Below, one piece after another: positions 9,276 through 63,946 of a stretch of 64,000 nt of DNA. Location: contig JAVVHA010000005.1 in NCBI GenBank assembly GCA_032249735.1, positions 1-64,000 on the forward strand, written 5' to 3'. Position numbers and translations under genes: made by a program. Position 1 is the stretch's first letter; each line of letters opens with the position of its first letter. The DNA comes from Dehalococcoidia bacterium (GTDB lineage Bacteria > Chloroflexota > Dehalococcoidia > SM23-28-2 > HRBIN24). A model generated the notes under the pieces. The model made no database searches. It had not been told where the DNA came from and saw only the letters and a program-made list of their open reading frames with translations.

Positions 9276-11644
9276 GACACTACCTCCACGATGGTGACCC
9301 CTTCTCCCCCTTCCCGAGGGTCGCCGGGCCTGTAGGACTTTACCAGGGGATGGGAGGCCAGAAGGTCGCGCACCGCCCGACGGAGGATGCCCGCTCCCTT
9401 GCCATGGACGATACGTAGCTGGCGGAGGCCAGCGCGGAAGGCCAGGTCCAGATGCCTCTCCACCAGGGGGAGGGCCTCGTCCGTGGTGAGGCCTCTTATC
9501 TCGAGCTCGGCGGGAGGGGCTGGAGGCGGGGTTGGGACCTCCACCCCTGAGGACCCATGGGGCGCCCCCTCTTCCACCCTCTCCACCTCCGAGAGAGGCA
9601 CGCGCAGGCGTAGACGTCCCACCTGCACCTCTAGCTCGCCGTTCTCCTGGGGGCCCGCCAGCACGGTACCTGGGGCACTTATGCCCCGCAGCCACACCAC
9701 CTGGCCAGGGCCCACCGGCGGCGGAGGTGGGCGCAGGGCCGCCTCTCGGTCAGCCAAAGCCTCCTCTTGGCTTTCTACTTCCTCCAAGAGGCGGCGGGCA
9801 CGGGCGAGGGCGCGCCAGGCTCTACGAGACCTCTGGGCCTTGGAGACGAGGCGCTCCACCTCCTGGAGACGACGGCGGGCCTGGGCCAGCATCTCCGTGA
9901 GCTCTCGTCTGGCTTCTGCCAAGTCCCGCAGCCGCTGCTGTCGGATGGAGGCCAGCTGGGCCTCCATCTCCCGCCGCAGGGACTCCGTCTGCTGTCGGGC
10001 CTCCTCCTGAGCCCTGCGTTCCGCCTGCGCCTTTCGCCTCTCCTCCTCCAGGTCTAGGAGAAGCCTCTCCATCTCCCGATGAGCAGGGGAGAGGGAGCGG
10101 GAGGCCTCCTCCAGGATGGGCTCTGGCAGGCCCAGACGGCGGGCGATGGCCAAGGCGTTGGACTGCCCAGGCATCCCCATGCGTAAGCGGAAGGTGGGGC
10201 TCAGGGTCTGGGGATCGAACTCCATGGAAGCGTTCATCATGCCCGGGGTGGCGTGGGCCAGGGCCTTCAGCTCCCCATGGTGAGTGGTGGCCACCACCAA
10301 GCAGCCCCGCTCCAGCAGATGAAGGAGAAGGGCGCGGGCCAAGGCCGCTCCCTCCGTGGGCTCCGTCCCGGCGCCCAGTTCGTCTAGGAGGACCAGGCTT
10401 TCAGACGTAAGGCGCCGCAAAGTGCCCACGATGTTGCCCATGTGGGCGCTGAAGGTGGATAGGGACTGCTCGATGCCCTGCTCATCGCCGATATCGGCGT
10501 AGACGCCATCGAACACGGGAAGCACACTCTGCTCGTCTGCTGGCACTGGTAGACCGGCTTGTGCCATGAGGGACAGCAGCCCCACCGTCTTAAGGGCCAC
10601 CGTCTTGCCACCGGTGTTGGGTCCGGTGATGACCAGCACGCGGAAGCCCACCTCATCTCCCAGGTGAAGGGAGAGGGGCACCACCTCCCCCCGCAAAAGG
10701 GGATGCCTGGCGTTGACCAAGCGCAGAAGAGATGGTCGAGGGCGCAGCCAGTGGGGCTCTCCGTCTGGCTGGGGGAGGGGGCAGCCCAGCTCATCGGCCA
10801 AGCGGGCCTTGGCCAAGGCCAGGTCCAGGCGGGCCAGGGCCTGAAGTGCCCTTAGGATGGCGGGCCCCTGTTGGCCCACCAGGGCGGAGAGACGTCGCAG
10901 CACCCTCTCCGTCTCCCTCTCCTCCTCCAGCTGTAGCTCTCGCCAGCGGTTGGCCTCCTCCACCACCTCCAACGGCTCCAAGAAGACGGTGGCCCCAGAG
11001 GCAGAGACATCGTGCACGATGCCCGGCAACTGGTGACGCATCTCGGCACGTATAGGAAGGACGTAGCGTCCGCCCCGCATGGTTATGATGGGTTCCTGCA
11101 ACACCTGACGGCCCAGGGGCGAGGACATTATCTGCTCCATGTGGCGGATGAGACGGTCGTGTGCCCGCTTCACTTCCCTCCGTAGCTCTTGCAGGGCTGG
11201 GCTGGCCTCGTCTGTCACCTGCCCCCTCTCATCGATGCACCGCTCAATCTCGCGGATGAGGGGCGTGAATTCGGCCACCCGGTCGACTATCGTCGCCAAG
11301 GTGGGGAGGAGCTCCCGCAGGCTGCCCACAAGCCCCCGCATGGTGCGGGCCAGGGACAGGGTGGTGGCTACCTCCCGCAGCTCTTGGGGGCCCAGGACGT
11401 GCCCTTTGGCCGCTTGTCTGGCCAGGTCTCGCACATCTGCTGCCGAGGCCAGGGAGAGGCCGGGTCGCAAGGAGAGGAGCTTGCGGGCCTCCGCTGTCTC
11501 CCGCTGGCGCCGCACCACCTCTTGGAAGCGGGAGGAAGGGACGAGGCGACGGGCCAGCTCCCGCCCCAGGGGAGAGGTGCACAGCCTCTCCAGACGGGCT
11601 AGGATCTTATCGAACTCCAGGGTTTGCAAGTGTTTGGCGTCCAA
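9272..11644 (-). CDS. mutS2: MutS2 endonuclease
   Basis: 790 residues, the usual length. Core and lever helices come first, then the ATPase with Walker A GPNTGGKTVALKT, DIGDEQ (Walker B side) and STFSAHM, a long coiled coil around residues 510-620 rich in Arg, Glu and Gln, the KOW-like part, and a C-terminal Smr nuclease domain (LEIRGLTTDEAL ... RIVHGKGAGILRRAV). MutS2 acts on branched DNA and on collided ribosomes; it is not a mismatch repair protein. The start codon is TTG (11642-11644), 2 bases after the AMMECR1 gene. No biochemical link with the downstream F420 genes is known; they are simply joined by the ATGA overlap. Confidence 0.95.
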   Translation of the reverse strand: MDAKHLQTLEFDKILARLERLCTSPLGRELARRLVPSSRFQEVVRRQRETAEARKLLSLRPGLSLASAADVRDLARQAAKGHVLGPQELREVATTLSLARTMRGLVGSLRELLPTLATIVDRVAEFTPLIREIERCIDERGQVTDEASPALQELRREVKRAHDRLIRHMEQIMSSPLGRQVLQEPIITMRGGRYVLPIRAEMRHQLPGIVHDVSASGATVFLEPLEVVEEANRWRELQLEEERETERVLRRLSALVGQQGPAILRALQALARLDLALAKARLADELGCPLPQPDGEPHWLRPRPSLLRLVNARHPLLRGEVVPLSLHLGDEVGFRVLVITGPNTGGKTVALKTVGLLSLMAQAGLPVPADEQSVLPVFDGVYADIGDEQGIEQSLSTFSAHMGNIVGTLRRLTSESLVLLDELGAGTEPTEGAALARALLLHLLERGCLVVATTHHGELKALAHATPGMMNASMEFDPQTLSPTFRLRMGMPGQSNALAIARRLGLPEPILEEASRSLSPAHREMERLLLDLEEERRKAQAERRAQEEARQQTESLRREMEAQLASIRQQRLRDLAEARRELTEMLAQARRRLQEVERLVSKAQRSRRAWRALARARRLLEEVESQEEALADREAALRPPPPPVGPGQVVWLRGISAPGTVLAGPQENGELEVQVGRLRLRVPLSEVERVEEGAPHGSSGVEVPTPPPAPPAELEIRGLTTDEALPLVERHLDLAFRAGLRQLRIVHGKGAGILRRAVRDLLASHPLVKSYRPGDPREGGEGVTIVEVVS

Positions 11645-49608: not shown

Positions 49609-50964
49609 TCACCCTCCCACCTTGGGTATATGTGCCAGGGCCTCCCGCACCTTCTCCTCAGGGTAGGCGTAGTCCTCCAGGCGGCCGGTGAGGTACTGGT
49701 CGTAGGCCGCCAGATCCAAGAGGCCGTGGCCTGAGAGGTTAAAGAGGATAACCCGCTGCTCCCCGGCCTCCCTGGCCGCCAGGGCCTCGTCGATGGCTGC
49801 CCGCACGGCATGGGCCGACTCGGGGGCCGGGACGATGCCCTCGGCCCTGGCGAACTGGACGGCCGCCTCAAAGACCTTGGTCTGGTGGTAGGCCCGGGCC
49901 TCCATCACTCCGTCCTCCACCAGTTTGGAGATGATGGGGGCCATGCCGTGGTAGCGGAGGCCGCCAGCGTGGATGGACGGGGGGATAAAGGTGTGACCCA
50001 GGGTATGCATCTTAAGGAGGGGTGTGGTGGCGGCCGTGTCGCCGAAGTCGTAGGTGTACTGGCCGCGGGTTATGGAGGGGCAGGCCTCAGGCTCCACGGC
50101 GATGAAGCGGGTCTTGCGGCCCTGGGTGAGCTTGTCCCGCACGAAGGGGAGGGCCAGGCCGGCGTAATTGGAGCCGCCCCCTACACACCCGATGACCACA
50201 TCTGGATAGTCGCCAGCCATCTCCATCTGCTGCAGGGCCTCCAGCCCTATCACCGTCTGGTGCAGCAGCACGTGGTTGAGGACAGAGCCCAGGGAGTACT
50301 TGGTGTCGTCCCTGGATGCGGCGTCTTCCACTGCCTCGGAGATGGCGATGCCCAGAGAGCCGGGGGACTCGGGGTCCTCTCTGAGGACCCTGCGCCCCGC
50401 CTCCGTATCGGGGCTGGGGCTGGGAACCACCTGTGCCCCCCATGTCTCCATGAGGACGCGCCGGTAGGGCTTCTGGTGGTAGGAGACCTTCACCATGTAA
50501 ACCTTCAGTTGGATGCCGAAGAAGGCACAGGCCATGGCCAGGGCCGATCCCCACTGTCCAGCCCCCGTCTCGGTGGTGAGACGTCGTACGCCCTCCGCCT
50601 TGTTGTAGTAGGCCTGGGCTACGGCGGTGTTGGGCTTGTGGGAGCCGGCGGGGGAGACGCCCTCATATTTGTAATAGATGCGGGCGGGGGTATCTAAGGC
50701 CTGCTCCAGCCGCCGGGCCCGGAAGAGGGGAGTGGGTCGCCATAGCTTGTATACCTCCCGCACCTCATCAGGAATGGGGATGTACCGCTCCGTGGAGACC
50801 TCTTGCTGGATGAGGGCTAGGGGGAAGAGGGGGATAAGGGCCTCCGGCCCCACCGGCTGCCCCGTGCGTGGGTCGATGGGCGGTGGTGGCGGGTCCATGT
50901 CCGCCAGCACGTTGTACCAGTGGGTGGGTATGTGGTCCTCATCTAGCAGGAACTTGGTACGCAT
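49609..50964 (-). CDS. trpB2: Tryptophan synthase beta-like protein (TrpB2 group)
   Basis: 451 residues of the longer TrpB2 group. [22 protein letters not shown] carries the PLP lysine (near residue 111), [16 protein letters not shown] and [15 protein letters not shown] follow. TrpB2 proteins lack residues for tight contact with TrpA and are thought to use free indole or to work with special partners. First gene after the T-box leader, 51 residues longer than TrpB1 at 40744. Its ribosome site GGGAGGTG is clear of the T-box hairpin. Confidence 0.95.
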
Positions 50965-50985
50965 GCTTCACCTCCCAGATACTAT

Positions 50986-51260
50986 TTCGGCCCCCCGTCC
51001 CTAGGGACGGGGGGCCGACCCGCGGTGCCACCCTAGTTCCCGCCATCGCTGGCGGGCTCTCGTTACGACGCTCCTACAGGAGCGTCATGGGCCAGATAAC
51101 GGTGCCCCACCGGTCACGCCTACTAGGGGGCTGGGGCCTCCCGTTGGGGTGACGGCTCCCGGGCCCATTCAGCAGGGGCCACGGCACCGGGCTCCCACCT
51201 TCCCCCGGCTCTCTGGGGCCGGGCGCACCTGCCTACTATCCCCGTTCGCAGCCTTTGCCT
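50986..51260 (-). promoter_or_regulatory. T-box leader with UGG (Trp) specifier
   Basis: On the minus strand, AAAGGCTGCGAA (51256-51245) begins stem I, an AGAGAGCC block near 51205 matches the AG-bulge region, and GAA-UGG-GCC gives the specifier UGG at 51167-51165. The T-box sequence AACTAGGGTGGCACCGCGG lies at 51038-51020. Uncharged tRNA-Trp should pair with both. After it comes a 13-bp hairpin, CGGCCCCCCGTCCC with its complement (50988-51017), but no T-run follows, so the exact mode of control (termination by another means or start-site access) is open. It serves the trpB2-trpS-trpE operon. Confidence 0.93.
50988..51017 (-). terminator. Strong GC hairpin after the trp T-box, without T-run
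   Basis: CGGCCCCCCGTCCC (51017-51004) pairs with GGGACGGGGGGCCG (51001-50988) around a TAG region. The next bases on the minus strand are AAATAGTATC, not the T-run an intrinsic terminator needs. It sits where the terminator of a T-box belongs, 24 bases before the ATG. Confidence 0.4.
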
Positions 51261-55124: not shown

Positions 55125-55149
55125 AGTGTCCTGAACAACCAAAAATGGT

Positions 55150-55373
55150 CAAAGGCTGCGAAGGGGAGTAGTAGGGGCGGCACCTCCCCCAGCGAGCCGG
55201 GGGTCGGTGGGAGCCCGGCGGTGAGGGCGCTCCGAACTCGCCCTGGAGCTTCCCGGCCGAAGAGCTAGTAGGTCGGGACGGGTGTGCCCGTTAGCGCACT
55301 AGAGGGCCCCGCACCCGGGGAAGAAGGGTGGTACCGTCCCGCCCCATGGGACCCCTTCGGGGCGGGCGTTTTT
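55150..55373 (+). promoter_or_regulatory. T-box leader with CUC (Leu) specifier
   Basis: AAAGGCTGCGAA (55151-55162) starts stem I, GAA-CUC-GCC gives the specifier CUC at 55237-55239, and AGAAGGGTGGTACCGTC (about 55322-55338) is the T-box sequence, whose core AGGGTGGTACCG fits the consensus. The terminator follows at once (next entry). Uncharged tRNA-Leu (GAG anticodon) should stabilise the antiterminator and let transcription reach ilvD and the following genes. Confidence 0.93.
55338..55373 (+). terminator. Intrinsic terminator of the Leu T-box
   Basis: CCCGCCCC (55338-55345) pairs with GGGGCGGG (55359-55366), followed by CG and a T5 run (55369-55373). The 5' arm begins inside the end of the T-box sequence, as expected for mutually exclusive antiterminator and terminator folds. 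An inner CCCC-TTC-GGGG hairpin competes. Confidence 0.8.
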
Positions 55374-55406: not shown

Positions 55407-57092
55407 ATGGCGGTGCGTAGCGATGCCGTCAAGAGGGGGCCCCAGTGGGCACCCCACCGCAGCATGTACCGGGCCATGGGCCTGGGGGACGAGGACATTT
55501 ACCGCCCCTTCGTGGGGGTGGCCAGCTCCTGGAACGAGGCCACCCCTTGTAACATCCACTTGAACCGCCTGGCGGCTGCTGTTAAGGAGGGGGTAAGGGC
55601 TGCGGGGGGCACCCCTAGGGAGTTCGTCACCATCGCCGTATCCGATGGCATCGCCATGGGGCACGCAGGGATGAAGGCCTCCCTGGTGAGTCGGGAGGTC
55701 ATTGCCGACAGCGTAGAGCTGATGATGCAGGCCCACCAGTACGACGCCCTGGTGGGCATCGCCGGTTGCGACAAGTCGTTGCCAGGGATGGCCATGGCCA
55801 TGGCCCGCCTCAACCTCCCCTCCGTCTTCCTCTACGGTGGCACCATTCTCCCTGGGCGCTACCGGGGGCGGGACGTCACCATCCAAGACATGTTCGAGGC
55901 GGTGGGGGCTTACACGGCGGGCCAGCTCACGGAAGAAGAGCTTTACGAGTTGGAGTGCGTAGCTTGCCCTGGGGAAGGTTCCTGCGCAGGCATGTACACG
56001 GCCAACACCATGGCCACCGTCATGGAGGCCCTGGGCCTATCCCTGCCAGGCAGCGCCTCGGTGCCCGCCCCGCATCGACGGCGGGACGAGGTGGCGCGCA
56101 GGAGTGGGGAGGCCGTCATGCGCCTGCTGGAGATGGAGATAAAGCCACGGGACATCCTCACCCGCCGCGCCTTCCTCAACGCCATCGCCGTGGATGCCGC
56201 TGTGGGCGGATCCACCAACGCCGTCCTTCACCTCCTGGCCCTGGCCCACGAGGCAGGGGTGGAGCTGAGCCTGGACGATTTCGACCGCATCAGTCGCCAG
56301 ACCCCCCATATCGCCGATATGCGCCCCGGTGGCCGCTACGTGATGGCCGATCTAGACCGGGTGGGCGGCGTGCCGCGGGTGATGAAAGAGCTGCTGGACG
56401 CCGGGCTCATCGACGGCGACTGCCTGACGGTGACGGGGCGGACGGTGCGGGAGAACCTGGCCCAGCTGCGCCTGCCCATGGATTCCCCGCAAGACGTGGT
56501 ACGCCCCATATCGGACCCCATCGCCCCCCGGGGGACCATATGTATCCTGCGGGGCAACCTGGCGCCGGAGGGGGCGGTGGTGAAGACGGCCGGCGTACGC
56601 CACCTGGTGCACACCGGGCCCGCTCGCGTGTTCGATTCGGAGGAGGAGGCCTTCCAGGCCATATCCCAGCGGCGGATCCGGGCTGGGGACGTGGTGGTCA
56701 TCCGATACGAGGGTCCCAAAGGGGGACCTGGCATGAGGGAGATGCTGGCCGTCACCGCTGCCCTGGTGGGCCAGGGGCTGGGGGAGGCGGTGGCCCTCAT
56801 CACCGACGGACGCTTCTCAGGGGCCACCCGCGGCCTCATGGTAGGCCACGTCTCCCCAGAGGCCATGGTAGGAGGGCCCATCGCCCTCCTCCAGGACGGA
56901 GATGAGGTCACCATTGACGTGGAACGGCGGCTAATAGAGATGAAGGTGAGCCCTGAGGAGATGGCGCGCCGGCGAGAGGCGTGGGTGCCGCCGCCCCCTC
57001 GCTATCGCTGGGGGGCCATGGCCAAGTACGCATCGCTAGTGGGGTCGGCTGCCCAGGGCGCTGTCTGCTCCCCACGTTGGGCGGAAAGATAG
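55407..57092 (+). CDS. ilvD: Dihydroxy-acid dehydratase
   Basis: 561 residues from ATG 55407 (AGGAGGAG box upstream); earlier in-frame codons lie inside the T-box terminator. [23 protein letters not shown] and [16 protein letters not shown] hold the three Fe-S cysteines, and [19 protein letters not shown] and [23 protein letters not shown] the active-site part. It makes 2-oxoisovalerate and 2-oxo-3-methylvalerate. First gene of the operon. Confidence 0.97.
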
Positions 57093-57118: not shown

Positions 57119-58846
57119 ATGGAGATGACGGGAGCGGAAATGGTGTTGGAGGCCCTGGCACGGGAAGGGGTGGAAGTGATATTTGGCCTTCCCGGCGGCG
57201 CCAACTTGCCCATCTACGATACCCTTCCCAAGTTCTACCCTAAGATCCGCCATTACCTGGTTCGCCACGAGCAGGGGGCAGCCCACGCCGCCGACGCCTA
57301 CGCCCGCGTCACCGGCAAGGTGGGGGTGTGCATGGCCACCTCCGGGCCTGGGGCCACCAACTTGGTGACGGGCATCGCCAACGCCTGGATGGACTCGGTG
57401 CCCATAGTGGCCATCACCGGCTGCGTCATCCGTCCCCTCATCGGGCGGGATGCCTTCCAAGAGGCGGACATCACGGGTATCACCATCCCCATCACCAAGC
57501 ACAACTACCTGGTGCTAAGCGCCAACGACATCCCACGCGTCATCCGGGAGGCGTTCTATATCGCCCGCACGGGGCGGCCAGGGCCGGTGCTCATCGACAT
57601 CCCGCGCGACGTGCAACAAGAACGGGGCCAGTTCTACTGGCCGGAGAGGGTGGAGCTGCGGGGTTACCGTCCTCCCATCTATCCCGACCCCGATGCCGTG
57701 GAGAAGGCGGCCCAACTCATCTACGAGTCCGAGCGCCCCCTCATCCTGGCTGGGCACGGGGTCATCATCGCCCAGGCCTTCTATGAGCTGCAAGAGCTGG
57801 CGGAGAAGGCCAACATCCCTGTCATCACCACCCTCTTGGGCATAAGCGGCTTCCCGCCTGATCACCCCTTGTATCTGGGCATGCCGGGGATGCATGGCAT
57901 GCACTGGAACAACTTGGCCATCTCGGAGTCCGACCTGCTGGTGGCCATCGGCATGAGGTTCGATGACCGGGTGACGGGGCGGCTCAAGGACTTCGCCCCC
58001 AAGGCCAAAGTCATCCACGTGGAGGTGGACCCGGCAGAGGTGGGCAAGAACGTGCGCCCCACGGTGGCCCTCCTGGGCGATGCCCGCATCTGCCTGCAGC
58101 AGCTCAACCGCCTCGTCCAGCGCCGGGAGCGCCCCGACTGGTTTGCTCGGTTGGACGAGCTGAAACGGGAGTATCCCTCCACCGTCTATCCTGAGGACAC
58201 AGAGGAGATATTGCCCCAGTATGTCATCGACTCCATCTACCGCGTCAGCGGCGGCGACGCCTACTTCGTGACCGGCGTAGGGCAGCACCAGATGTGGGCG
58301 GCTCAGTACTTCTGGTCCAAGAAGCCCAACTCCTGGATCACTTCGGGCGGCCTGGGCACCATGGGCTTCGAGGTGCCGGCGGCGGTGGGCGTCCAGATAG
58401 CCAAGCCCGGGGAGCTGGTGTGGGCCATCTGCGGCGATGGCGGCTTTCAGATGACCATGGAGGAGCTGGGGGTGGTCTCAGAATACAACCTTCCCATCAA
58501 GTTCGCCATCATCAACAATGGCCACCACGGCATGGTGCGCCAGTGGCAGAGCCTCTTTTACCGCGGCAACCTGGTGGCCAGCCCCCTAAAGAACCCCGAC
58601 TTTGTGAAGATCGCCGAGGCCTATGGCATCCTGGGCCTGCGGGCCACCCGCCGTGAGGAGGTGGTGCCCGTCTTGGAGCGGGCCCTGGAGCACCAGGGGC
58701 CGGTGATCATCGACTTCCACGTGAAGCAGGACGAGAACTGCTTCCCCATGGTGCCCCCGGGGGCGTCCCTACAGGAGACCATCGGCCTGCCCAAGGAGTA
58801 CGTGGAGCTGGTGCACAAGCGCCAGACCATGGAGGTGAGGAGATGA
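57119..58846 (+). CDS. ilvB: Acetolactate synthase large subunit
   Basis: 575 residues. VIFGLPGGANLPIYD near the N-terminus, RHEQGAAHAADAYARVTGKVGV with the ThDP-activating Glu, the FAD domain around residues 190-340, and ICGDGGFQMTMEELGVV (GDG...N ThDP-Mg site continuing into IINNGHHGMVRQWQ). It condenses two pyruvates, or pyruvate and 2-oxobutyrate. It starts 26 bases after ilvD and overlaps ilvN by ATGA. Confidence 0.96.
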   Translation: MEMTGAEMVLEALAREGVEVIFGLPGGANLPIYDTLPKFYPKIRHYLVRHEQGAAHAADAYARVTGKVGVCMATSGPGATNLVTGIANAWMDSVPIVAITGCVIRPLIGRDAFQEADITGITIPITKHNYLVLSANDIPRVIREAFYIARTGRPGPVLIDIPRDVQQERGQFYWPERVELRGYRPPIYPDPDAVEKAAQLIYESERPLILAGHGVIIAQAFYELQELAEKANIPVITTLLGISGFPPDHPLYLGMPGMHGMHWNNLAISESDLLVAIGMRFDDRVTGRLKDFAPKAKVIHVEVDPAEVGKNVRPTVALLGDARICLQQLNRLVQRRERPDWFARLDELKREYPSTVYPEDTEEILPQYVIDSIYRVSGGDAYFVTGVGQHQMWAAQYFWSKKPNSWITSGGLGTMGFEVPAAVGVQIAKPGELVWAICGDGGFQMTMEELGVVSEYNLPIKFAIINNGHHGMVRQWQSLFYRGNLVASPLKNPDFVKIAEAYGILGLRATRREEVVPVLERALEHQGPVIIDFHVKQDENCFPMVPPGASLQETIGLPKEYVELVHKRQTMEVRR

Positions 58847-59403
58847 GCAACGGCAGGGGCAACGGCCGACGCTTCCACACCATCATCGCTCTAGTAGAAG
58901 ACCGGCCGGGGGTCCTCAACCGCATCGCCTCCAAGTGGCGGCAACGCGGGTTCAACATCGAGAGCCTGGCCGTGGGCCACTCCGAGACACCCGGGCTCTC
59001 CCGTATGACCTTGGTGGTGGATGCTAGCCACGACGCCGAGCAGGTGGTTAAGCAGCTGGATAAACTCATCGACGTGGTGGACATACGCGACGTCTCCGAT
59101 GAGGACATCGTGGCCCGCGAGATGGCCCTCATAAAGGTGCGGTGCGATGCCGGCAACCGCAGCCACATCATCGAGGTGGTGGACATCTTCCGGGCCAACA
59201 TCATCGACGTCTCTCCGGAGTCGGTCATCGTGGAGGTGACGGGGGACGAGGGGAAGATCGACGCCATCTTTGAGCTCCTGCGCCCCTACGGGGTCATCGA
59301 GATGGTGCGCACAGGGAGGGTGGCCATGCTGCGGGGCTCCGCAGCCTCCCACCCCCCCCTGCACGAGGAGTACGATCGCTATCCAGGCCAGGAGACATGG
59401 TAG
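58843..59403 (+). CDS. ilvN: Acetolactate synthase regulatory subunit
   Basis: 186 residues. The N-terminal ACT domain (TIIALVEDRPGVLNRIASKWRQRGFNIESLAVGHSE) binds valine or leucine and activates IlvB; a second ACT-like region follows. The C-terminus is slightly longer than usual (RGSAASHPPLHEEYDRYPG). Coupled to ilvB by ATGA and 9 bases from ilvC. Confidence 0.95.
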   Translation: MSNGRGNGRRFHTIIALVEDRPGVLNRIASKWRQRGFNIESLAVGHSETPGLSRMTLVVDASHDAEQVVKQLDKLIDVVDIRDVSDEDIVAREMALIKVRCDAGNRSHIIEVVDIFRANIIDVSPESVIVEVTGDEGKIDAIFELLRPYGVIEMVRTGRVAMLRGSAASHPPLHEEYDRYPGQETW

Positions 59404-59412
59404 GAGGCGGCC

Positions 59413-60411
59413 ATGGCCAAGGTCTACTACGACCAGGACGCTGACCTGGGGCTGCTGCAGGGCAAGGCCATCGCTGTAGTGGGGTTCGGCTCCCAGGGCC
59501 ATGCCCACGCCCTTAACCTGCGCGACACGGGCCTGGACGTGACGGTAGCCCTGTACGCGGGGTCCCCATCCTGGGGCAGGGCGGAGGAGGCGGGCCTGCG
59601 GGTGACCACGGTGGCGGAGGCCGCCCAGAAAGCGGACATCATCGTCATGCTGGCCCCCGACCAGGCCCAGCGCCACATCTATGAGGAGTCCATCCGGCCC
59701 CATCTACGGGCAGGCCAGATGCTCATGTTTGCTCACGGCTTCAACATCCACTATCACCAGATCCTGCCGCCCCCGGAGGTGGACGTGACCATGGTGGCCC
59801 CCAAGGGCCCCGGTCACCGACTGCGGGAGCTGTTCGTCCAGGGGCTGGGGACGCCTGCCCTCTTGGCTGTCCACCAAGACGCCTCTGGCAACGCCAAGGC
59901 CCTGGCCCTGGCCTACGCCAAGGGCATCGGCTGCACCCGCGCAGGCGTCATCGAGACCACCTTCGCCGAGGAGACGGAGACAGACCTGTTCGGTGAACAG
60001 GTGGTGTTGTGCGGAGGAGTCAGTGCCCTCATCAAGGCAGCCTTCGAGACCCTGGTGGAGGCCGGCTATCAGCCGGAGGTGGCCTATTTCGAGTGCCTAC
60101 ACGAGCTGAAGCTCATCGTGGACCTCATATATGAGGGGGGGCTCTCCTACATGCGCTACTCCGTCTCCGATACCGCTGAGTACGGGGACTACACCCGTGG
60201 CCCTCGCGTCATCGATGAGCATGTGCGCCAGACGATGAAGAAGATCCTGGAGGAGGTGCGCAGCGGCGAGTTCGCCCGGGAGTGGATATTGGAGAACCAG
60301 GCGGGTCGGCCAGTGTTCTTGGCCATGCGCCAACGCGACGCCCAGCACCCCATCGAGCAGGTGGGGCGGCAGCTGCGCAGCATGATGCCCTGGCTTAAGG
60401 GCACCAGATAG
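59413..60411 (+). CDS. ilvC: Ketol-acid reductoisomerase, class I
   Basis: 332 residues, short class I form. [20 protein letters not shown] is the Rossmann motif; the following loop reads [15 protein letters not shown] where NADPH enzymes usually have Arg (LRxGS). The knotted C-terminal domain has [33 protein letters not shown] (metal Asp/Glu), and [17 protein letters not shown]. It makes 2,3-dihydroxy-isovalerate. Confidence 0.97.
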
Positions 60412-60423
60412 GAGGGCAAAGAG

Positions 60424-60852
60424 ATGGGCAGGCCCAAGGCGAGCCAAGAGTTCATCGATATGCTCAACGAGGCCCTGGCGGAGGAGATGGCATCCATCTT
60501 CCAGTACATGTGGGACCACATCCTGGCGCGGGGCATGGAGAGCTTGGCCATTGCCGAGAAGTTCAAGGAGCTGGCCATGACGGAGATGCGCCACGCCTAC
60601 ATGCTGGCGGAGCGCATCGACCTGTTGGGCGGGGTCCCCACCACCCAGGTGGCCCCCATAAAGATCGGCGGCGACCTGCGCCAGATGGTGGAGGACAACC
60701 TCCAGCTGGAATACGAGGCCATCGATATGTACCGCCGCCTCATCAAGCAGGCGGAGAAGGAAGAAGACCCAGCTAGCCGCCGCCTGCTGGAGGAGATCCT
60801 CAAGGACACCGAGGAACACGCTCGCGACCTGGAGGCCCTTCTGGGGAAGTGA
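60424..60852 (+). CDS. Bacterioferritin-like di-iron protein in the ilv-leu operon
   Basis: 142 residues, four-helix ferritin-like. The ligand set is complete: Glu in EALAEEMASIFQYM (near 20), E-M-R-H in LAMTEMRHAYMLAERI (near 55), Glu in LQLEYEAIDMYRR (near 98) and TEEHARDLEALL (near 130). The Met right after the first Glu of EMRH is the residue that binds haem in bacterioferritin. The gene is 12 bases after ilvC and before leuA, on the same strand. Iron supply or storage for the Fe-S enzymes IlvD and LeuCD is an inference from location. Confidence 0.88.
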   Translation: MGRPKASQEFIDMLNEALAEEMASIFQYMWDHILARGMESLAIAEKFKELAMTEMRHAYMLAERIDLLGGVPTTQVAPIKIGGDLRQMVEDNLQLEYEAIDMYRRLIKQAEKEEDPASRRLLEEILKDTEEHARDLEALLGK

Positions 60853-60890
60853 TGGGTTATGGGACGGCGGCGTGACCTCAACCTTCCTAG

Positions 60891-60924
60891 GCCCCCTTCG
60901 GGCCCCTAGGGGCCTGAAGGGGGC
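60891..60924 (+). other. 34-base hairpin between the ferritin-like gene and leuA
   Basis: GCCCCCTTC-G-GGCCCC (60891-60906) pairs with GGGGCC-T-GAAGGGGGC (60909-60924), with one G-T pair and almost no loop. No T-run follows. It lies in the longest gap of the operon (119 bases) and could end, protect or process the mRNA, lowering or separating leu gene expression. Confidence 0.5.
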
Positions 60925-60971
60925 ATCCCCCGAGAAAATCACAGCCAAGTTCTTCAGGGAGGCTGATGGGC

Positions 60972-62519
60972 ATGTCTGAGGACCGCGTATACATATTTGA
61001 TACGACCCTGCGGGACGGGGAGCAGACCCCCGGTGTGGCCCTGGGCGTGGAGGAGAAGCTGGAGATCGCCCGCGCCCTGGAGAGGATGCGGGTGGACATC
61101 ATCGAGGCCGGCTTCGCCGCCTCCTCCCCAGGCGACTTCGAGGCAGTGAGCCGCATCGCCAAGGAGGTGCGGGGGGCGGTCATTGCCACCCTCTGCCGGG
61201 CAGTCCCCGAGGACATCGACATAGGCTGGGAGGCCATCAAGGAGGCCGAGAGCCCACGCCTGCACGTCTTCATCTCCAGCTCCGATATCCACATCATGCA
61301 CATGCTGGAGAAGGATAGGGAGCATGTGCTGGAGATGGCCCGCACCATGGTGGCGCGGGCGGCCAAGTACTGCCCCGACGTGGAGTTCTCGCCTCAGGAC
61401 GCCACCCGCTCTGAGCCGGAATACGTCTTCCGCATGCTCAAGGAGGTCATCGACGCCGGGGCCACCACCGTGAATATCCCCGATACCGTGGGCTACGCCA
61501 TCCCGGAGGAGTTCGCTGCCTTCATCAAGGCCATCCAGGAGAACGTACCCAACATCCACCGCGCCCGTATATCAGTCCACTGCCACAATGACTTGGGCCT
61601 AGCGGTGGCCAACTCCTTGGCGGCCATCAGGGCCGGGGCGCGGCAGGTGGAGGTGTGCGTCAACGGCATCGGCGAGCGTGGGGGCAACGCCGCTCTAGAG
61701 GAGGTAGTGATGGCCCTCAAGACGCGCAAGGACCTGTTCGGCCTCACAGTGGGGCTGGACACCACCCAGATCTACTCGGTGAGCCGCCTTGTCTCCCAGC
61801 TGACGGGGGTGCCGGTGCAGCCCAATAAGGCGATTGTGGGCGCTAACGCCTTCCGCCACCAATCGGGCATTCACCAGCACGGCATAGTTAAGCTGCGGGA
61901 GACATATGAGATCATAGACCCGCGGGAGATCGGCCTGCCCCGGGGCGGGATCATCGTCCTCAACAAGAACTCGGGCCGTCACGGCCTGCGCGCCCGCCTG
62001 CGGGAGCTGGGCTATGAGATGACGGAGGAAGAGCTGGACCACGTCTTTCGGGCCTTCAAGGAGCTGGCCGACAAGAAGGGCGAGATCGACGACCGTGACC
62101 TGGAGATGCTGGTAAAGGAGGAAAGGCGGGCCACTGTGGAGGTCTACAAGTTGGACCTCCTGCAGGTCTCCTGCGGCAACCGTCTGGTGCCCACGGCCAC
62201 CGTCCGCCTCATCGGCCCCCAGGGGGAGGTGTTGCAGACCACGGCCACCGGCACCGGCCCTGTGGACGCCTCCTTCCAGGCCATCAACCGCCTGGTGGGG
62301 CTCCCCAACCGCCTGGTGGAGTATGAGGTCAAGAACGTCACTGAGGGGATCGACGCCCAAGGGGAGGTGACGGTGCGCATAGAGGTGGACGGGCGCACCT
62401 TCGTGGGTATCGGGTCCGACACCGATATCGTGGTGGCCTCGGCCAAGGCCCTCATGGACGCCCTCAACCGCGCCCTAACGCGCACGCCTCGTAGCGAGCA
62501 GACATGGGCCAATCCGTGA
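60972..62519 (+). CDS. leuA: 2-Isopropylmalate synthase
   Basis: 515 residues. [46 protein letters not shown] (metal His pair) and [17 protein letters not shown] are the catalytic barrel; [16 protein letters not shown] leads to the linker; the C-terminal leucine-binding domain (about 400-510) is present, so feedback inhibition is expected. ATG 60972 is preferred as AGGGAGG is 9 bases upstream; ATG 60966 is only 3 bases away from it. Confidence 0.95.
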
Positions 62520-62536: not shown

Positions 62537-63946
62537 ATGACCGCTAAGACCATCTTCGAAAAGATCTGGGAGGCCCACGTGGTGCATGAGGAGGATGGGG
62601 AGGCCCTCCTCTATGTCGATTTCCACCTGGTGCACGAGGTGACCTCCCCTCAGGCCTTCGATGGCCTGCGGCTGGCTGGGAGACGGGTGCGGCAGCCGCA
62701 GCTCACCCTGGCCACCTGCGACCATAACGTCCCCACCTGGCCTGGCCGGCTGCCCATCACCGACGAGATATCACGGCGCCAGATAGAGGCCTTGGAACGC
62801 AACTGCCAGGAGTTCGGCATCACTTACTTTGGCCTCTTCTCTCCCAACCAGGGCATCGTTCACGTCATCGGGCCGGAGTTAGGCATCACCCAGCCAGGGA
62901 TGGTCATCGTCTGTGGCGATTCTCATACTTCCACCCACGGGGCCTTTGGCGCCCTGGCCATGGGCATCGGCACCTCGCAGGTGGAGCACGTTTTGGCCAC
63001 CCAGACCATAAGGATGAAGCGCCCTAAGACCATGGAGGTGCGGGTGGAGGGCCAGCTGCCCCGGGGGGTCACGGCCAAGGACGTCATTTTGGGCATCATC
63101 GGCCGTATTGGCGTGGACGGCGGTGTGGGGCACGTCATCGAATATACAGGCAGCGCCATACGCTCCCTCTCCATGGAGGGGCGCATGACCATCTGCAACA
63201 TGAGCATCGAGGCCGGGGCCAGGGCGGGCATCATCGCTCCCGATGAGGTCACCTTCGCCTACCTAGAAGGGAGACCCTACGCCCCCAAGGGCAAGGCGTG
63301 GGAGGATGCCCTGGAGTACTGGCAATCCCTGCCCACCGACCCAGGCGCCCGCTACGACAAGGTGGTGGTGATAGATGCTTCCACCTTGGAGCCCTACGTC
63401 ACATGGGGCACCAACCCTGGGCAGGTGGCGCCGGTGACGGGCCGTGTGCCCGACCCTTCCTCCTTCCCCACGGAGGCGGAGAGGGAGGCTGCCAGCCGGG
63501 CCCTCCAATATATGGGTCTGGAGCCGGGAACCCCCATCCAGGACATATGGGTGGACAGGGTCTTCATCGGCTCCTGCACCAACGCCCGCATCGAGGACCT
63601 GCGGGCGGCCGCCCAGGTGGTCCGTGGCAAAAAGGTGCACCCGCGGGTGCGGGCCATGGTGGTGCCCGGATCCACCCAGGTGCGCCTCCAGGCCGAGAGG
63701 GAGGGGCTGGACAAGATCTTTAAGGAGGCCGGGTTCGAGTGGCGAGAGGCGGGCTGCTCCATGTGCCTGGGCATGAACCCCGATATCCTTCAGCCCGGGG
63801 AGCGGTGCGCCTCCACCTCCAACCGCAACTTCGAGGGTCGCCAGGGGCGCGGGGGCCGCACCCACCTGGTGAGCCCACAGATGGCCGCCGCCGCTGCCAT
63901 CGCTGGCCACTTCGTTGACATAAGAAAATGGGACTGGGAGGAATAG
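62537..63946 (+). CDS. leuC: 3-Isopropylmalate dehydratase large subunit
   Basis: 469 residues of aconitase superfamily, from ATG 62537 (GGGGG box upstream; the earlier ATG at 62504 lies inside leuA). [35 protein letters not shown] and [10 protein letters not shown] supply the 4Fe-4S cysteines. It works with LeuD to isomerise 2-isopropylmalate. Confidence 0.97.

Follow-up and report, generated by a model that had tools for sequence, protein, structure and literature searches.

A predicted variant mini-bacterioferritin encoded within the ilv-leu operon of a Dehalococcoidia bacterium

Introduction

The closest described relative of the protein considered here is the mini-bacterioferritin of 'Ca. 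Methanoperedens carboxydivorans', a 12-mer described in 2026 and represented by PDB entries 9QQ4 and 9QQ5 (PMC13168243). In the 9QQ4 crystal structure the di-iron ligands are Glu16, Glu49, His52, Glu91, Glu124 and His127, and the signature proposed for mini-bacterioferritins as a group is His29, Gly34 and Met52 (alignment numbering), together with freedom from extensions (PMC13168243). A second relevant system is that of the hetero-bacterioferritins, in which the subunits that bind haem are the weaker ferroxidases and function in the reduction of iron (PMC12120770). On the side of regulation, Leu T-boxes (RF00230) are known from ilv-leu operons, and the LEU element of leuA has been described for Actinobacteria (PMC1262725). 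Here, we describe a locus of the Chloroflexota class Dehalococcoidia in which a gene of the first kind lies between two RNA leaders that resemble the last two. The locus lies in a stretch of 64,000 nucleotides, called the window below.

The ilv-leu operon and its Leu T-box

The gene order in the window is T-box(Leu, CUC)-ilvD-ilvB-ilvN-ilvC-ferritin gene-leuA-leuC, all on the forward strand. The T-box leader 5' of ilvD (55149-55358) scores 97.9 bits with Rfam RF00230, above the gathering score of 93, and has CUC (Leu) at the specifier position, which bears out the Leu T-box named in a preliminary description of this DNA. It is followed by ilvD for dihydroxy-acid dehydratase (55407-57092; TIGR00110, 779 bits; PRK00911), by ilvB and ilvN for the large and small subunits of acetolactate synthase (57119-58846, TIGR00118, 764 bits; 58843-59403, TIGR00119, 188 bits), and by ilvC for ketol-acid reductoisomerase (59413-60411; TIGR00465, 463 bits). 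The ferritin gene (60424-60852) starts 12 bases 3' of the ilvC stop (60411) and its start codon is preceded by AGGAGG, so that both the spacing and the placement within the ilv-leu gene run are as first described. Downstream lie leuA for 2-isopropylmalate synthase (60966-62519; TIGR00973, 718 bits) and leuC for the large subunit of 3-isopropylmalate dehydratase (62537-63946; TIGR00170, 796 bits). IlvD and LeuC are Fe-S enzymes.

Conservation of this position had been set beforehand as the point on which the preliminary description could fail, and it held: the ferritin gene stands between ilvC and leuA in all seven genomes of one clade. This slot clade consists of the genome of the window and its three relatives of family f1 (G000-G003), G004 (family f2), G013 (f3) and G255 (f68, of another order). 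Most of the genomes compared are fragmented assemblies, the named ones being metagenome-assembled, and the seven members count as one clade.

A simple scan of the gap between ilvC and the ferritin gene gave no promoter-like or terminator-like site. The T-box specifier loop reads GAA-CUC, by alignment, in G000, G002 and G001, and a T-box also precedes the ilv genes in G002, G001, G013 and G004. In G255 no T-box was detected at E 0.01 in the 6 kb searched upstream, and ilvD does not stand in front of ilvB there. Membership of the gene in an operon under a Leu T-box, as originally proposed, is therefore well supported in f1, f2 and G013, where these sequence features make expression together with the ilv genes very likely. 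The T-box occurs in relatives without the ferritin gene too, and is thus older than the present distribution of that gene.

A second T-box, with the specifier UGG (Trp), lies at 51000-51258 on the reverse strand before a trpB-like gene (49609-50964, reverse strand). For Dehalococcoides, T-boxes of the Trp type have already been described before trpB-like genes (PMC2494555).

The protein and its di-iron site

The 142-aa product is a ferritin by Pfam PF00210 (110.7 bits; cut-off 24.5), and among solved chains 9QQ4 is nearest (E 1.5e-33, with the runner-up at 3e-19). An AlphaFold2 model, whose confidence is low (pLDDT 68.5), has 9QQ5/9QQ4 as its first fold match and four helices at residues 8-33, 41-67, 85-112 and 116-140, with no terminal extensions and no C-terminal E helix; this low-confidence model thus has the four-helices-only build, free of N- and C-terminal extensions, that marks a mini-bacterioferritin. 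With TIGR00754, the model for bacterioferritin, the protein scores 78.3 bits, under the curated cut-off of 125.55. The name bacterioferritin-like in the preliminary description was therefore right as to the ferritin family and too broad as to the subgroup, since the protein is below the TIGR00754 cut-off and nearest to mini-bacterioferritins. Within family f1 the identity to the relatives is 87-90% and dN/dS is 0.05-0.22, indicating that the gene is under purifying selection and is not a chance ORF. Its product is the sole PF00210 protein of the window genome (99% complete), which also encodes one other rubrerythrin-type protein. A search of that genome for Fer2_BFD (Bfd-type ferredoxin) gave no match, which weighs against the iron-buffering reading given below, although a mini-bacterioferritin may use another partner.

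An ungapped alignment to 9QQ4 places five of the six di-iron ligands in the protein, namely Glu21, Glu54, His57, Glu96 and His132. At the sixth position, in the last ExxH motif, Thr129 (codon ACC, 60808-60810, forward strand) replaces the bridging ligand, which is Glu124 in 9QQ4 and Glu127 in E. coli Bfr. The complete di-iron ligand set that had been read from the sequence thus lacks its bridging Glu, with the other five ligands kept, and the canonical site of four Glu and two His is replaced by one with Thr129 in all slot members; for this reason we file the protein as a variant, not a canonical, mini-bacterioferritin. All seven slot members have Thr at this position, and every other signature-bearing mini-bacterioferritin compared has Glu. 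On the tree the change from Glu to Thr happened a single time, which makes it a trait of this lineage; it does not amount to a statistical association. Loss of the bridging Glu may weaken or abolish ferroxidase activity. The same position is also Thr in true bacterioferritins of the beta-proteobacterial Roseateles/Rubrivivax and in chain 5zur, whose structure is solved; a cage can thus accommodate this residue, and function need not be abolished.

The signature of the mini-bacterioferritins is present as His32, Gly37 and Met55, the last of which aligns with Met50 of 9QQ4 and is the haem-ligand-like Met noticed at the outset. Given this His/Gly/Met signature, binding of haem at the dimer interface is plausible by analogy. 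The haem-propionate contacts Arg13 and Tyr28 of 9QQ4 are Leu and Ile in the 142-aa protein; Arg13 is replaceable in other mini-bacterioferritins, for which a different haem has been inferred (PMC13168243).

Perhaps the altered site signals a changed job, with the protein acting as a haem-based redox or peroxide-handling cage, or holding a single-metal site, instead of storing iron, and being expressed with the ilv genes by chance. This would agree with the contrast between Thr129 in the slot and Glu elsewhere, with the retention of Met55, with the iron-reducing haem subunits of hetero-bacterioferritins mentioned above, and with the ORF of G255, a fusion of two ferritin domains in which the first has the Thr and the second a complete ligand set. 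It agrees less well with the five ligands that remain, both His included, and with the Thr of the beta-proteobacterial bacterioferritins and 5zur, and we consider such a change of job unlikely.

Ferritins with two fused domains in a single open frame, about 280-315 aa long, are common in the class, as in G255 (L010 1435-2376), G386, G144, G076, G379, G344, G389 and G305, and PDB 9viw (306 aa) matches the double-domain ferritin over both domains.

Conservation and history of the slot

All four f1 genomes carry the ferritin gene once, at 87-100% identity, and the order ilvC-ferritin gene-leuA recurs in G013 (68% identity) and G255 (53% and 50%). In G004, ilvC ends one contig (C60) and the ferritin gene stands at the end of another (C65); the two ends share an 88-base overlap with a single mismatch, which makes the genes neighbours there as well. 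In a protein tree the slot members, including the first domain of G255, form a single branch with support of 93/87. Seven of the 25 genomes of the order match the protein, one of them (G024) through a distant ferritin at another place, while most relatives with the same operon have ilvC and then leuA with the ferritin gene absent. A second sample of genomes from the class gave no further slot members, and a scan of genome contigs with the single protein returned only two close relatives and the true bacterioferritins of Roseateles/Rubrivivax.

Two of the genomes that lack the gene, G015 and G016, retain a relic of it, a stretch of roughly 37 bases from its 3' end that lies directly 3' of ilvC (89%, E 4e-9 in G015). 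Their ilvC genes are nearest to that of G013, and the absence of the ferritin gene from these two is therefore due to loss by deletion. Because of this relic we also rejected a recent gain by G013. These sequence data are best explained by vertical descent with losses. Most likely, a mini-bacterioferritin gene moved in between ilvC and the leuA leader a single time, in an ancestor shared by two or more orders within this class of Chloroflexota, and was then inherited in place and repeatedly lost. Our verdict from these comparisons is that the gene encodes a conserved and vertically inherited variant mini-bacterioferritin.

A rival reading sees no relation of the gene to branched-chain amino acid synthesis: it could have landed once in an insertion-tolerant gap and been kept as a generally useful sole ferritin, with control by the T-box incidental. 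Indeed, the gap between ilvC and leuA ranges from 131 to over 1100 bases among relatives and holds ORFs for REP-associated transposases, an amidohydrolase-/metal-dependent-hydrolase-like protein and a flavin-nucleotide-binding-like protein (named by eye from translations). Many relatives keep the operon without the ferritin gene, the slot is kept in G255 with no detectable T-box, and one clade amounts to one event, so that retention does not represent many independent tests. Set against these points, the exact place and orientation are kept although ilvC identity falls to about 72%, and the ligand change accompanies the move into the slot. We regard incidental retention of this kind as quite possible, if somewhat doubtful.

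The nearest mini-bacterioferritin pair outside the ilv slot consists of two tandem genes (named by eye) at L039 8869-10293 in G042. By eye, this pair is behind a rubrerythrin-like gene and adjoins a metal P-type ATPase-like gene, a usual oxidative stress or metal context.

The RNA leader before leuA

Between the ferritin gene and leuA lies a LEU-element-like leader (60873-60974, forward strand; covariance model R1, 19.0 bits) composed of an anti-Shine-Dalgarno base stem and a bulged hairpin. Its architecture is CUCAACCUU, a bulged G/C hairpin, and then GGAGGUUGAG, which contains the leuA Shine-Dalgarno sequence. The leader is also present in the gap of relatives (L089 3242-3342, L091 2534-2630 and at least 20 other loci), and it is degenerate in the window, at 19.0 bits against up to 90 bits in relatives.

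Model R1 was built from 8 cleanly aligning rows, with the remaining rows used as a test; MAFFT alignments of leuA leaders mispaired several rows and were not used for the model. The model gave 14 matches across 197 genomes of the class, one per genome and every one just 5' of leuA, and three of these are in families outside the model-building set. Over 29 leader sequences, in an alignment fitted to the model that includes one probable chance match (L085 1379-1409), 94.7% of cells are paired and 13 of the 21 pairs have two-sided changes. This pairing was reached by none of 500 shuffles, and slid versions gave 61% at most, so that covariation strongly supports the leader.

As in a LEU element, a strand with Leu codons pairs with the leuA Shine-Dalgarno sequence; this stem, P1, has 8 pairs with 97.8% of cells paired and three pairs with two-sided changes. 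The pairing strand reads Leu-x-Leu in the leaders, and start codons vary between them. In the window, sequence reading and leader comparison point to a possible leader peptide, MGRRRDLNLPRPPSGP (60859-60909, forward strand; start codon uncertain), whose Leu codons fall in the anti-Shine-Dalgarno strand. The leader matched no Rfam family at E 0.01. It looks like a LEU element in Chloroflexota, of which our literature search found no report. Because leuA has this leader of its own after the ferritin gene, the T-box is probably not the sole control of the downstream genes.

Several further observations concern this region. ORFs for REP-associated (Y1-type) transposases, named by eye, lie between ilvC and the leuA leader in L040 (about 10278-10919), L088, L093, L094 and L072 (G016). 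A match of the leader model at 50895-51029 on the reverse strand (E 0.012) coincides with the trpB T-box, and we took it for a chance match. The palindrome before leuA was rejected as a terminator or REP repeat, since it lacks a run of T and the window yielded no dispersed copies of it. Finally, leuA has an ATG at 60972, about 9 bases from GGAGG, and an in-frame ATG at 60966 that is only about 3 bases away; the better Shine-Dalgarno spacing makes 60972 the probable start.

A possible role in iron buffering

How might a ferritin relate to the operon in which it lies? In the window the ferritin is very probably translated from the ilv transcript, and the Leu T-box would then set the ferritin level, which would be higher when leucyl-tRNA is uncharged. 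Judging by 9QQ4, the 142-aa four-helix subunit probably builds a haem-containing 12-mer with an asymmetric di-iron site, in which Thr takes the place of one bridging Glu. The role that seems most likely to us is that the only PF00210 ferritin of the cell would buffer iron and its oxidants while the Fe-S enzymes IlvD and LeuCD are made, a reading that we favour tentatively and hold at somewhat less than probable.

The Fe-S nature of IlvD and LeuC, the purifying selection on the ferritin gene and the retention of its place over long divergence count for a link to iron. That link is weakened by the loss of the bridging Glu, by the lack of the gene in most relatives with the same operon, by the unrelated genes that the ilvC-leuA gap holds in relatives, and by G255, with neither a detectable T-box nor ilvD upstream. 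The coupling of ferritin to the demand of IlvD and LeuCD, which the preliminary description had put forward, is thus best called possible. Proof of such coupling would connect ferritin expression with tRNA charging, and for a connection of this kind we found no described case in the literature searched.

In a more specific version, the slot mini-bacterioferritin would have lost its bridging ligand after the move and then been dedicated to IlvD and LeuCD, either as their haem-dependent donor of iron or as their redox guard, with the charging of leucyl-tRNA setting its dose. We think this distinctly improbable; if true, iron handling would be tied directly to the sensing of amino-acid starvation.

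Comparison with known systems

The locus resembles known ilv-leu operons with a Leu T-box (RF00230) in having the T-box before the ilv genes and a CUC specifier, and differs from them by the inclusion of a ferritin gene. Neither 'ferritin' nor 'iron' occurs as a word in the T-box survey PMC2494555, and a literature search for ferritin or bacterioferritin with T-box or ilv found nothing relevant. The leuA leader shares with the actinobacterial LEU element the base stem between a Leu-codon strand and the Shine-Dalgarno sequence; only P1 and P2 were modelled here.

With classical bacterioferritins (TIGR00754) the protein shares the ferritin fold, the haem-ligand-like Met and ExxH-type motifs, but it stays below their cut-off score and is missing the C-terminal E helix. 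The hetero-bacterioferritins (PMC12120770) offer the notion of a subunit that keeps haem while its di-iron site is weakened, and the fused pair of G255 resembles their division of labour; however, they are 24-mers from two gene products, whereas the window genome has one PF00210 protein.

The closest likeness is to the mini-bacterioferritin of 9QQ4/9QQ5, which extends to length, the four-helix core without an E helix, the His/Gly/Met signature and five of the six di-iron ligands. The differences from 9QQ4 are Glu124 to Thr, Arg13 to Leu, Tyr28 to Ile and, at the dimer interface, Glu54 to Tyr. The word 'operon' is absent from PMC13168243, and, unlike the gene of 'Ca. Methanoperedens carboxydivorans', the window gene sits in an ilv-leu operon. 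A concrete, testable context for the role of mini-bacterioferritins is offered by this branch, which is fixed in an operon for branched-chain amino acids, provides the sole PF00210 ferritin of its genome and has a changed metal site.
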